Assembly: GCF_000018585.1 (NCBI RefSeq)
Contig: NC_009976.1
Span: 491,982 to 555,981 of the forward strand
Source: Prochlorococcus marinus str. MIT 9211
GTDB taxonomy: Bacteria; Cyanobacteriota; Cyanobacteriia; PCC-6307; Cyanobiaceae
Direction of reading: 5' to 3'
DNA length: 64,000 bases
This document shows, in pieces, positions 22,995-61,294 of this stretch (position 1 is the first letter of the stretch; every line of letters starts with the position of its first letter). The notes under the pieces were generated by a model. The model had not been told where the DNA came from. It did no database searches and saw only the letters and a program-made list of their open reading frames with translations. The position numbers and the translations under genes were made by a program.

Positions 22995-23771
22995 ATGAAC
23001 GGACTCACTAGTTTTGAGAAACGTGACCGACGACTCTCAGGGGGGGCTTTGGTCACTGGATCTGAGGTTGAATCTCAGTCATCAGGAGCTAGTTGTGTAA
23101 TTACTACTGATTCAGAGAAGTCACTAGTTTCTAGGCAGGCAAGTCATGTCCAGCAAATCGAATTGAGGACATATGTTTTTTTAGATTCTTTACAACCTCA
23201 ATTGGCGGCTTATATGGGTACTGTCAGCCAAGGTTTCCTTCCGATTCCAGGAGATGCTTGTCTCTGGATGGAGGTTTCTCCTGGAATGGCAGTGCATAGA
23301 GTTACTGATATCGCACTTAAAGCTAGTAATGTCAGGCTTGGTCAGATGGTGGTTGAGAGAGCGTTTGGATCACTAGCTCTTTATCACCGTGATCAAAGTA
23401 CAGTCTTGCATTCTGGCGATGTTGTATTAGATGCTATTGGTAGCAGTGTTGGTAGACGTACTAAGCCCCAAGTAAGTTGGACTGAGGTAATTAGGGCAAT
23501 AACACCTGATCATGCAGTTTTAATTAATCGACAAAACCGGCGTGGATCAATGATTCAGTCGGGAATGAGTATGTTTATTCTTGAAACTGAACCTGCGGGA
23601 TATGTATTAATGGCAGCAAATGAGGCTGAGAAGGCATCAAATATAACTGTTGTTGATGTAAAGGGCGTAGGAGCTTTTGGTCGGTTAACTCTTGCTGGTA
23701 GAGAAGGTGATGTTGAAGAAGCGGCTGCTGCTGCTATGAGGTCAATTGACCAGATAAATAAGGACTTTTAA
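22995..23771 (+). CDS. csoS1D: carboxysome tandem-BMC shell protein CsoS1D
   Basis: CsoS1D is a tandem bacterial-microcompartment protein whose pseudo-hexamer trimers stack and carry a gated pore. The 258-residue protein has a Ser-rich N-terminal extension of about 50 residues, then two diverged BMC domains (about 53-150 and 153-258). Matching paired segments are [18 protein letters not shown] and [18 protein letters not shown], and the pore-type ERAFGSL lies in the first half. It sits one gene away from the main carboxysome operon, as in other Prochlorococcus (family knowledge). Confidence 0.95.
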
Positions 23772-24355
23772 GAGGTAAGATTGAACTCTTGCAAAAGATG
23801 AGGTGCTAAAGCTCTTGCAGCTTTCCCTCTGCTACCAAGTTTCGTTAATTGCTCTTTACTTAATTCTCCATAAGTACATTTCGCTTCTCTTACCCAAAAG
23901 ATTGATTCAAACTCACCATTAGGGTAGGCGGGGTGTTTAAGTAGTTCTCCCCAGCATATCCCCTCTGAATTACTAATAAGGTTGCCTTCTGGGTTGCATA
24001 GAACCATTGCGCTGCAGAACCTAGCGCTTCGATAAGGGGTGTCCCCTAATTGATTGAGGATTTTCTTAAGCTTCTCTTCATTGGATTGAGCGAATCGAGC
24101 AGAGTAAATACCTGGTGCGCCATTAAGTGCATCAACTTCCAATCCAGAGTCATCTGCAATTGTCCAGCTATTGGTTTCTCTTGCAGTTGCAGTCCCTTTT
24201 AGTAGGGCATTCTCGAAATAAGTTTCTCCTGTTTCCTCTACATTCATATCTTGAGGTTGTTTATGTACTTCTATAGGAAGAGGACCTAGCATTGCTTCTA
24301 TCTCTGCAACCTTCTTGGGGTTGCTGCTTGCAATAGTTAAAATTGGTCTAGTCAA
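23768..24355 (-). CDS. rdgB: non-canonical purine NTP pyrophosphatase (RdgB/HAM1)
   Basis: House-cleaning enzyme that hydrolyses dITP/XTP and similar nucleotides to monophosphates. The 195-aa protein shows [16 protein letters not shown], the metal-binding [23 protein letters not shown] and the purine-binding [11 protein letters not shown] end. It overlaps the csoS1D stop by four bases and is divergent from csoS1, whose leader lies upstream. Confidence 0.95.
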
Positions 24356-24696
24356 AATTAAAATAAGATTTCAATTTGGAAGGTCTTTTGAGATTAGGTT
24401 TTTAAGAAGTTATCGGAGGCAGGTTGGGCTGAACATTCCATCCCTTGGCAATACCTAGGGACCTGCCTCGGATTGAGAAAATAAACACTATGAGCGAATA
24501 AAACAATTAAATGTTTTGGGGTGCTAACTGAAAAACCTATAGCCCTTTAAATCAGTCATGCCAGGGGTCATAAGCTGAGCTTATCAGTGCAAGCAAATAA
24601 GGTAATCATGTTTTCGATGAAATGCTCTTGACTTTAGCGGGTCCCTGCAGTCATTGTCTCTGTTGAACATTCCATCCCTTTATCTCAGTTTAGGCA
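24356..24696 (+). promoter_or_regulatory. leader/promoter region of the carboxysome operon
   Basis: The 341 bases between rdgB and csoS1 lie between divergent genes and should hold the carboxysome promoter. A 17-base motif (tgaacattccatccctt) occurs twice, at 24430-24446 and 24664-24680, the second just before csoS1. Around the first copy, gaggcaggt (24416-24424) can pair with acctgcctc (24461-24469), and an imperfect inner stem cccttgg/cctaggg lies within. This looks like a structured RNA element or processed leader. I do not recognise clear promoter boxes. Confidence 0.6.
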
Positions 24697-25008
24697 ATGG
24701 CTAACGAAACCATGGGCATCGCACTCGGCATGATCGAGACCCGCGGCCTTGTACCAGCTATCGAAGCTGCTGACGCAATGACTAAGGCTGCTGAAGTGCG
24801 CCTTATTGGTCGTGAATTTGTGGGCGGCGGTTATGTAACAGTTTTAGTTCGTGGAGAAACTGGTGCAGTTAATGCTGCTGTTCGTGCAGGAGCTGATGCA
24901 TGTGAACGCGTAGGAGACGGACTTGTTGCTGCGCACATTATTGCTCGCCCTCATAGAGAAGTTGAGCCTGCATTAGGCAATGGCAACTTCCTTGGTCAAA
25001 AAGACTGA
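24697..25008 (+). CDS. csoS1A: major carboxysome shell hexamer protein CsoS1
   Basis: A 103-residue single-domain BMC protein forming the hexamers that tile the alpha-carboxysome facets. The signature GIALGMIETRGLVPAIEAAD starts at residue 6, and the pore loop and the AHIIARPHREVEPAL end are typical. Codons are richer in GC in the first 30 residues than in neighbours, fitting very high expression. It heads the operon csoS1-cbbL-cbbS-csoS2-csoSCA-csoS4AB-csoS1E. Confidence 0.98.
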   Translation: MANETMGIALGMIETRGLVPAIEAADAMTKAAEVRLIGREFVGGGYVTVLVRGETGAVNAAVRAGADACERVGDGLVAAHIIARPHREVEPALGNGNFLGQKD

Positions 25009-25078: not shown

Positions 25079-26491
25079 ATGAGTAAGAAGTATGACGCTG
25101 GGGTTAAGGAGTACAGAGACACCTACTGGACTCCGGAATACGTACCCCTAGACACAGACCTTTTGGCTTGCTTTAAATGCACTGGCCAAGAAGGAGTCCC
25201 TAGAGAGGAAGTAGCAGCTGCTGTTGCTGCCGAATCATCAACAGGTACTTGGTCCACTGTGTGGTCTGAGTTGTTGACCGACCTCGAATTTTACAAGGGT
25301 CGTTGTTATCGCATTGAAGATGTACCTGGAGACAAGGAGTCTTTTTATGCGTTTATAGCTTATCCTCTCGATCTTTTTGAAGAAGGATCCATTACAAACG
25401 TTCTAACCTCTTTGGTTGGAAACGTATTTGGTTTTAAAGCTTTACGCCATCTTCGTTTAGAAGATATTCGTTTCCCAATGGCTTTCATTAAGACCTGTGG
25501 TGGTCCTCCTAATGGAATCGTTGTTGAAAGAGACCGTTTAAATAAGTATGGTCGTCCCTTACTTGGTTGCACAATTAAGCCAAAACTTGGTCTTTCTGGA
25601 AAGAATTATGGCCGAGTAGTTTATGAGTGTCTTCGTGGTGGCTTGGACCTTACTAAAGATGATGAGAACATAAACTCACAACCTTTCCAGAGATGGAGAG
25701 AGCGTTTCGAATTTGTAGCTGAAGCTGTCAAGCTGGCTCAACAAGAAACTGGTGAAGTTAAAGGTCATTATCTTAACTGCACAGCGACTACTCCTGAGGA
25801 GATGTATGAGCGTGCTGAGTTTGCAAAAGAACTCGACATGCCCATAATCATGCATGACTACATAACAGGTGGCTTTACTGCTAATACAGGACTAGCCAAC
25901 TGGTGTAGAAAGAATGGCATGCTTCTCCATATCCACAGGGCAATGCATGCGGTGATTGACCGTCATCCAAAGCATGGTATTCACTTCCGTGTATTGGCTA
26001 AGTGCTTGCGACTATCTGGTGGAGATCAGCTTCATACAGGAACTGTTGTTGGAAAACTAGAAGGTGATCGCCAGACCACTCTTGGCTATATAGATAACCT
26101 ACGTGAATCCTTTGTCCCTGAAGATAGGACTCGAGGCAACTTCTTCGATCAGGATTGGGGCTCTATGCCAGGTGTATTTGCCGTTGCTTCAGGCGGTATA
26201 CACGTTTGGCATATGCCAGCGCTGTTAGCTATTTTTGGCGACGACTCTTGTCTCCAGTTTGGTGGTGGTACTCATGGACATCCATGGGGATCTGCTGCTG
26301 GCGCGGCTGCTAACCGAGTTGCTCTTGAGGCTTGTGTTAAAGCACGTAATGCCGGTAGAGAGATTGAGAAAGAAAGCCGTGACATCTTGATGGAAGCAGC
26401 GAAGCATAGCCCTGAGTTGGCTATAGCCCTTGAGACCTGGAAAGAGATCAAGTTTGAGTTCGATACGGTTGACAAGTTAGACGTTCAATAG
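25079..26491 (+). CDS. cbbL: Rubisco large subunit, form IA
   Basis: Ribulose-1,5-bisphosphate carboxylase large chain, 470 aa, housed inside the carboxysome. The active-site lysine loop [17 protein letters not shown], the carbamylated lysine motif [17 protein letters not shown], and loop 6/[13 protein letters not shown] are intact. It begins [20 protein letters not shown], the form IA (proteobacterial type) N-terminus, consistent with the horizontally acquired alpha-carboxysome system of marine picocyanobacteria. Confidence 0.99.
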
Positions 26492-61009: not shown

Positions 61010-61294
61010 ATCTCAGCAATGCTGAAAAACTAAGGAGGACAAAAAGAGAACAATTCCGCCTAGCGTTATTTGCTGTTCTTTCGCTTAAAAGGTTTCTGAT
61101 GGTTGACTTTTGGCCTAATTAGGACTTACCTCGACAGGCGCAAAATGGTATCAACAGATACATTTTTGTTTCATCTCATTTCTTTTGAATTTCTTCAATC
61201 TGTATCAACCGCTACACTTTGTATACGTTCGTTTTCCTTAGGGAAATGCATATTAGGGCAACAGGGAACGGGGTTGCCTCTATTGAGAACGGCC

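Follow-up and report, generated by a model that had tools for sequence, protein, structure and literature searches.

A conserved hairpin RNA element divergent from the carboxysome gene csoS1 in Cyanobiaceae, a candidate antisense regulator of the csoS1 mRNA

In Escherichia coli, IstR-1 and OhsC are divergently encoded antisense small RNAs that do not overlap their toxin targets, tisB and shoB, and act in trans through complementarity to the 5' UTR of the target. The element described here, upstream of csoS1 of Prochlorococcus marinus, appears comparable in layout, with a putative RNA gene that is divergent from, adjacent to and non-overlapping with its presumed target and that carries short complementarity to the 5' UTR. 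It differs from the two E. coli systems in its target, a carboxysome shell gene, in its position ahead of rdgB without a visible terminator, and in the predicted pairing, which would extend to both the first nucleotide and the start codon of the mRNA.

Several small RNAs of Prochlorococcus offer closer taxonomic comparisons. In the available part of its description, Yfr28 of strain MED4 overlaps the ftsZ leader in cis, with its first 46 nt perfectly complementary to it, and belongs to high-light clades (PMC7368042). The present element would likewise be an sRNA of this genus with complementarity to a neighbouring gene's 5' UTR; unlike Yfr28 as described there, it does not overlap csoS1 and it occurs across the Cyanobiaceae (PMC7368042). 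Yfr10 is reported, in the accessible portion of another study, to enrich csoS1 and csoS2 mRNA in MED4 (PMC6778093); both would be RNA regulators of the same csoS1 operon, with different genes and motifs. The element shared by Yfr1 and Yfr10 is given as aCUCCUcACACAC in the excerpt of its report at hand (PMC2518516), and by eye the CUCCUCACAC element of this family is absent from the 61-nt hairpin sequence. Yfr103 was rejected as the identity of the hairpin, being 290–328 nt long with seven paralogues in the text available. No entry in the available part of the MED4 ncRNA table could be placed at the csoS1 locus, as judged without MED4 csoS1 coordinates. Within the open-licence literature accessible to us, no description of the hairpin RNA was found; it may be present as an unnamed entry in a Prochlorococcus table of transcription start sites. 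Rfam 15 gave no match at the gathering threshold over the region, and the best sub-threshold hit on the hairpin was RF02940 (14.9 versus 42.5 bits). Elsewhere in the analysed DNA, a Glutamine-II riboswitch (RF01704) was matched at 61223–61279 on the plus strand with a score barely over gathering.

The locus was studied within a 64,000-nt stretch of the P. marinus MIT 9211 genome, hereafter the window. Its features are as follows.

23768–24355, minus strand: rdgB/HAM1 family gene (Pfam Ham1p_like, E 5.1e-47), directly downstream of the predicted minus-strand RNA
24413–24472, minus strand: structured element, putatively antisense (model R1), with outer helix P1, helix P3 and loop GGAAUGUUCA
24430–24446, minus strand: copy 1 of the 17-mer, which on the minus-strand RNA would be the antisense seed 5'-AAGGGAUGGAAUGUUCA-3'
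24447–24459, minus strand: putative second antisense segment, the P3 arm 5'-CCUAGGUAUUGCC-3', complementary to csoS1 GGCAAUGgCUA at the start codon
24478–24483, minus strand: predicted -10 element TATTTT
24501–24506, minus strand: predicted -35 element TTGTTT of the same promoter, 17-nt spacer
24570–24584, plus strand: RbcR-like (LysR-type) palindrome ATAAG-N5-CTTAT, from sequence and conservation, centred at -88
24628–24633, plus strand: predicted csoS1 -35 element TTGACT, from the conservation of TTGAC-N32-GAACAT
24652–24657, plus strand: csoS1 -10-like element CATTGT, 18-nt spacer, conserved as CATTnT or CAATGT and a weak match to TATAAT
24664–24680, plus strand: copy 2 of the 17-mer, whose last 16 nt, starting at 24665, are the predicted beginning of the csoS1 mRNA (GAACAUUCCAUCCCUU); putative antisense target site 1
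24693–24703, plus strand: ribosome-binding site and start codon of csoS1 (GGCAATGGCTA); putative antisense target site 2
24697–25008, plus strand: csoS1, the operon's first gene, which encodes a carboxysome shell protein with a BMC domain

The sequence-only reading had pointed out two copies of a 17-bp motif at a distance of 234 bases, the first of them surrounded by an inverted repeat, and both features were borne out. The 17-mer TGAACATTCCATCCCTT is present at 24430–24446 and 24664–24680 with 17/17 identity, and the two arms at 24412–24424 and 24461–24473, which are 92% complementary, flank copy 1 on both sides. Within the 64-kb window, the two copies are the only matches to the 17-mer at up to three mismatches (0.31 expected). 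Across the whole genome (1,688,963 bases, one contig), the 15-mer TGAACATTCCATCCC occurs exactly at these two places alone, and the next-best matches are seven places with two mismatches each. The 341 bases between the rdgB reading frame on the minus strand and the csoS1 ATG at 24697 (24356–24696), taken by that reading as the leader of the carboxysome operon, are an intergenic region; the predicted csoS1 leader is far shorter (see below). The next gene after csoS1 is rbcL, at 25079. The start codon of rdgB is apparently TTG (24355, minus strand), and in many of the relatives listed the first available start is also not ATG.

Conservation was followed first with a CsoS1 query, which gave 80 named loci, most of them from Prochlorococcus, and a further 30 loci out of 400 family genomes (372 with csoS1); 80 more stretches and freshwater genera were then added. 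Two genus mates also carry the region. Both copies are conserved across the Cyanobiaceae, with the GAACATTCC core present almost everywhere and a spacing of 230–238 in most leaders. Copy 2 is the better conserved of the two, so that its non-conservation, the outcome that the earlier reading had set against itself, did not occur.

The arrangement TTGAC-N32-GAACAT is fixed in 85 of 87 distinct leaders, placing copy 2 at a constant distance from the -35 element. In the accessible part of its description, RbcR activates from about -90 and a consensus for its site is given (PMC13249358), and the palindrome centred at -88 is close to that expected position. From its sequence and conservation, this ATAAG-N5-CTTAT palindrome is likely an RbcR site in Prochlorococcus and Synechococcus. 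The fixed -35 distance, the CATTnT element and the RbcR-like palindrome together make the G of copy 2 the predicted +1, so that the mRNA would start as GAACAUUCC at 24665 and have a leader of ~32 nt. Two more conserved blocks, TGT..GGTGCTnAC and AG..TTTA.A.CAGT, lie between the two promoters at 24515–24556 and are possibly regulator sites.

The two copies do not represent the same kind of site, and copy 1 lies in a different setting. The covariance model R1, built in the present analysis, matches the window with 71.0 bits (E 9.3e-17), and the 61-nt hairpin sequence folds at -25.2 kcal/mol (z -2.95). The letters of P1 differ between lineages while the pairing holds, as in GAGACAGG/CCUGUCUC, GCAGCGGU/ACCGCUGC, GAACGG/CCGUUC and others. 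With an unanchored alignment, RNAalifold predicted no structure for the plus strand and P1 alone for the minus strand; because of this weak result, the alignment was cut to P1 and redone. In the resulting covariation alignment A2, comprising 50 of the 123 elements, 85.3% of cells are paired, compared to 74.0% in shuffled and 34–50% in slid controls, 14 of the 16 pairs show two-sided changes, and none of 500 shuffles was as good on any of five measures. Loop letters are nearly invariant between elements, and the seed lies mostly inside the loop of this covarying hairpin.

An RNA on the plus strand was considered first and dropped after the wobble strand count and the promoter test. Among the non-Watson-Crick pairs of P1 columns 6–13 and P3, 59 are G.U on the minus strand and 17 are A.C, and both helices favour the minus strand (P1 17:4, P3 42:13); the outermost pair, columns 5–69, counts the opposite way (2:9). 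A cruder first count over extended P1 helices, with 58 G.U on the plus strand versus 45 A.C, did not discriminate between the strands. Folding energy is likewise no test of strand (means of -20.2 plus and -20.5 minus, with the minus strand better in 36/77).

Upstream of P1, a minus-strand TAnnnT is found in all 112 elements counted (mean of 45.2 in 200 shuffles), 86 of which also have TTG at a spacing of 16–18 (shuffle mean 3.8) and 80 at exactly 17 (shuffle mean 1.4); 11 of the 123 elements were left out of this count as their P1 ends are unclear. When these stretches are reverse-complemented, the pattern occurs in 0/112, a figure that controls for the pattern and is distinct from a test for a plus-strand promoter, and such a promoter upstream of the hairpin was judged by eye in clade alignments only. 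The sequence evidence thus indicates that the hairpin RNA is encoded on the minus strand with its own predicted promoter and a predicted 5' end at ~24471. On this strand, the loop is the exact antisense of the predicted csoS1 mRNA 5' end.

The complementarity to the csoS1 mRNA is conserved and accessible in the predicted loop, as expected for a member of the antisense class. Among 57 distinct combinations of copy 1 and copy 2 (the count required both copies), the first 9 nt are all paired, by Watson-Crick or G.U pairs, in 54 and the first 13 nt in 34. The comparison of copy cores also kept L033 and L104, which have no copy 1. Differences between the copies at positions 1–13 comprise 21 G.U-compatible changes, 5 A.C and 19 transversions; this asymmetry could in part reflect structural constraint on copy 1. 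Mismatches are found within the seed in L022, L187, L311 and L312 and within the target in L229.

Duplexes with the cognate target have a mean energy of -36.9 kcal/mol, compared to -33.9 for targets of other lineages and -18.9 for shuffled targets, and over the whole duplex the cognate pairing is stronger than the between-lineage swap in 63 of 76 cases. At the second site, where GGUAUUGCC faces GGCAAUGgC in the window, the cognate is stronger in 93/113 and the best duplex reaches the AUG in 104/113; compared to shuffled targets this site is only moderately better (39/113 in the best 5%). Parallel changes occur here, such as GACAUGG with CUAUGUC (L029) and GUAGGCA with UGCCUAC (L042), and likewise in the two copies: A at position 12 in high-light type leaders, ATTC in L111 and L112, and GAACATCCC in L016, L125 and relatives. 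On the csoS1 tree, single compensatory sites provide too few supported independent events for significance.

Of 300 family genomes, 193 contain a match to model R1, nearly always a single one; G003 and G232 contain two. In G003 there are two csoS1 loci, each with an antisense element (contig C17, 596–904 and 35957–36265), a duplication or an assembly artefact. Among csoS1 loci, the model matches 77/80 in one set, always on the strand opposite csoS1, and 65/80 in another. There was no match outside the Cyanobiaceae, as all four matching genomes among 146 of the phylum belong to the family of the window, and no relevant match among 50,697 cyanophage records.

The association between element and target was assessed in 153 distinct leaders (L001, L016–L095 without L092, whose contig ends early, and L176–L283). 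L246 was set by hand to present, its element being outside the locus on the same contig, and L280 to absent despite a partial match (E 0.318). Of the 123 leaders with the element, 122 have an intact csoS1 end, GAACATYCC, as do 13 of the 30 without it (Fisher 1.3e-13, a value that ignores descent). The csoS1 tree offers five supported independent pairs, with 2.1 in the same direction and 0.0 in the opposite one, too few for significance. The 13 leaders that keep the target without the element are a genuine weak point of the antisense reading; in them, copy 2 at the csoS1 5' end may serve another function as well, or the RNA may have shifted so far that it is no longer recognised. The hairpin is missing and the target kept in L212, L220 and L233, for example; L204, L205 and L215, which are Synechococcus-like and without the hairpin, have a csoS1 mRNA end that has diverged to GAACATCCT.

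The two copies are 1.6–1.9 kb apart in eight freshwater genomes (G025, G070, G063, G007, G048, G011, G065 and G092), with the hairpin confirmed by model R1 in all of them. In G025, the only one of the eight read along its whole length, the copies are separated by sbtA and a PII-like gene (L343, 3–1409), and the hairpin is still beside rdgB. The PII-like gene there is probably sbtB, and the element is divergent to a bicarbonate transporter. This separation excludes a shared leader and means that the seed-target pair, if functional, acts in trans. A structured element inside the csoS1 transcript, such as a cis leader or a riboswitch, is not what was found: the strand evidence is opposite and the freshwater element lies 1.6–1.9 kb off.

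From the repeat, covarying structure, strand, promoter, complementarity and distribution seen in the sequences, we infer that a divergently encoded antisense RNA, either an sRNA or the 5' leader of the rdgB mRNA, pairs with the csoS1 mRNA (rough probability 0.77). The RNA would be transcribed on the minus strand from the -35 at 24506–24501 and the -10 at 24483–24478, with a 5' end at ~24471; it would lie ahead of rdgB and may be part of the rdgB mRNA. Contact would begin between its loop, GGAAUGUUC, and the opening nucleotides of the csoS1 mRNA, whose 5' end is free; the seed pairing could then grow to 16 bp, and the P3 arm would next pair with the ribosome-binding site and AUG. The simplest and most likely outcome would be that initiation on csoS1 is blocked or reduced and the life span of its mRNA altered; protection or cleavage of the mRNA 5' end is possible instead. 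The antisense RNA would probably repress csoS1 translation. The small-RNA proposal of the sequence-only reading is partly supported: duplication and structure are both conserved, and what they involve is the csoS1 leader together with a small RNA that is structured. The proposed direction was wrong, as the RNA is predicted on the minus strand, with a loop complementing the csoS1 5' end, and is no look-alike competing for a protein.

Whether the predicted RNA is separate from the rdgB mRNA bears on its role. In the 105 of 113 elements in which the rdgB start codon could be recognised, its median distance downstream of P1 is 50 nt, and a T-rich tail follows P1 in only 17 of 113 (10 of the 123 elements were left out of the terminator count); a plain scan of 24300–24760 found no intrinsic terminator (hairpin and U run). 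With few T-rich tails and the rdgB start close by, the hairpin may be the rdgB leader. A bolder and less probable reading is that, throughout the alpha-cyanobacteria, the rdgB 5' leader doubles as an antisense regulator acting on the carboxysome operon, with a seed-target match kept through locus rearrangement, and balances CsoS1 against Rubisco. rdgB is a housekeeping gene of nucleotide-pool sanitation, and this would be, if true, control of one mRNA by another. A rather unlikely variant has the hairpin as a cis element of the rdgB mRNA, with the csoS1 mRNA regulating rdgB or the two regulating each other. Its pairing is that of the favoured reading, but regulator and regulated partner are assigned differently; the nearby rdgB start, the lack of a clear terminator and the persistence of the element with rdgB in G025 agree with it, whereas the seed complements the csoS1 5' end and start codon, the usual site of target repression, and the rdgB ribosome-binding site falls outside the element.

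A paired DNA operator, as suggested in the sequence-only reading, would have one regulator bound to both copies, at the csoS1 +1 and 234 bp upstream, with the DNA looped between them. The identical 9–10 bp core, the constant placement of copy 2 with respect to the csoS1 promoter, the 230–238 spacing in most leaders and the copy 2 retained in 13/30 leaders without the element are all consistent with such a site. We nevertheless consider it very unlikely, as the covarying RNA hairpin and the minus-strand promoter occur at copy 1 alone, the copies are 1.6–1.9 kb apart in the freshwater genomes, the spacing range covers most of a helical turn, and mismatches between the copies favour G.U-compatible changes (21 to 5). 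Most improbable of all is a decoy on the plus strand, in which copy 1, carried by a small RNA or by an extended csoS1 leader, would imitate the csoS1 5' end and sequester an RNA-binding protein: the hairpin does fold about equally on either strand and its loop is nearly invariant, yet the wobble asymmetry (59:17) and the strongly conserved promoter favour the minus strand, and the repeat is explicable without any protein-binding motif.

Prochlorococcus and Synechococcus are major fixers of CO2 in the ocean, and little is known about how carboxysome shell is set against Rubisco. An antisense RNA pairing with csoS1 would probably tune the amount of carboxysome shell protein. RbcR regulation is a transcriptional layer, to which the antisense RNA would add a second, post-transcriptional one. 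It would also represent an RNA family missing from Rfam 15. A conserved antisense RNA directed at csoS1, with which the carboxysome operon begins, would offer a concrete and testable point of post-transcriptional control next to the presumed RbcR site.
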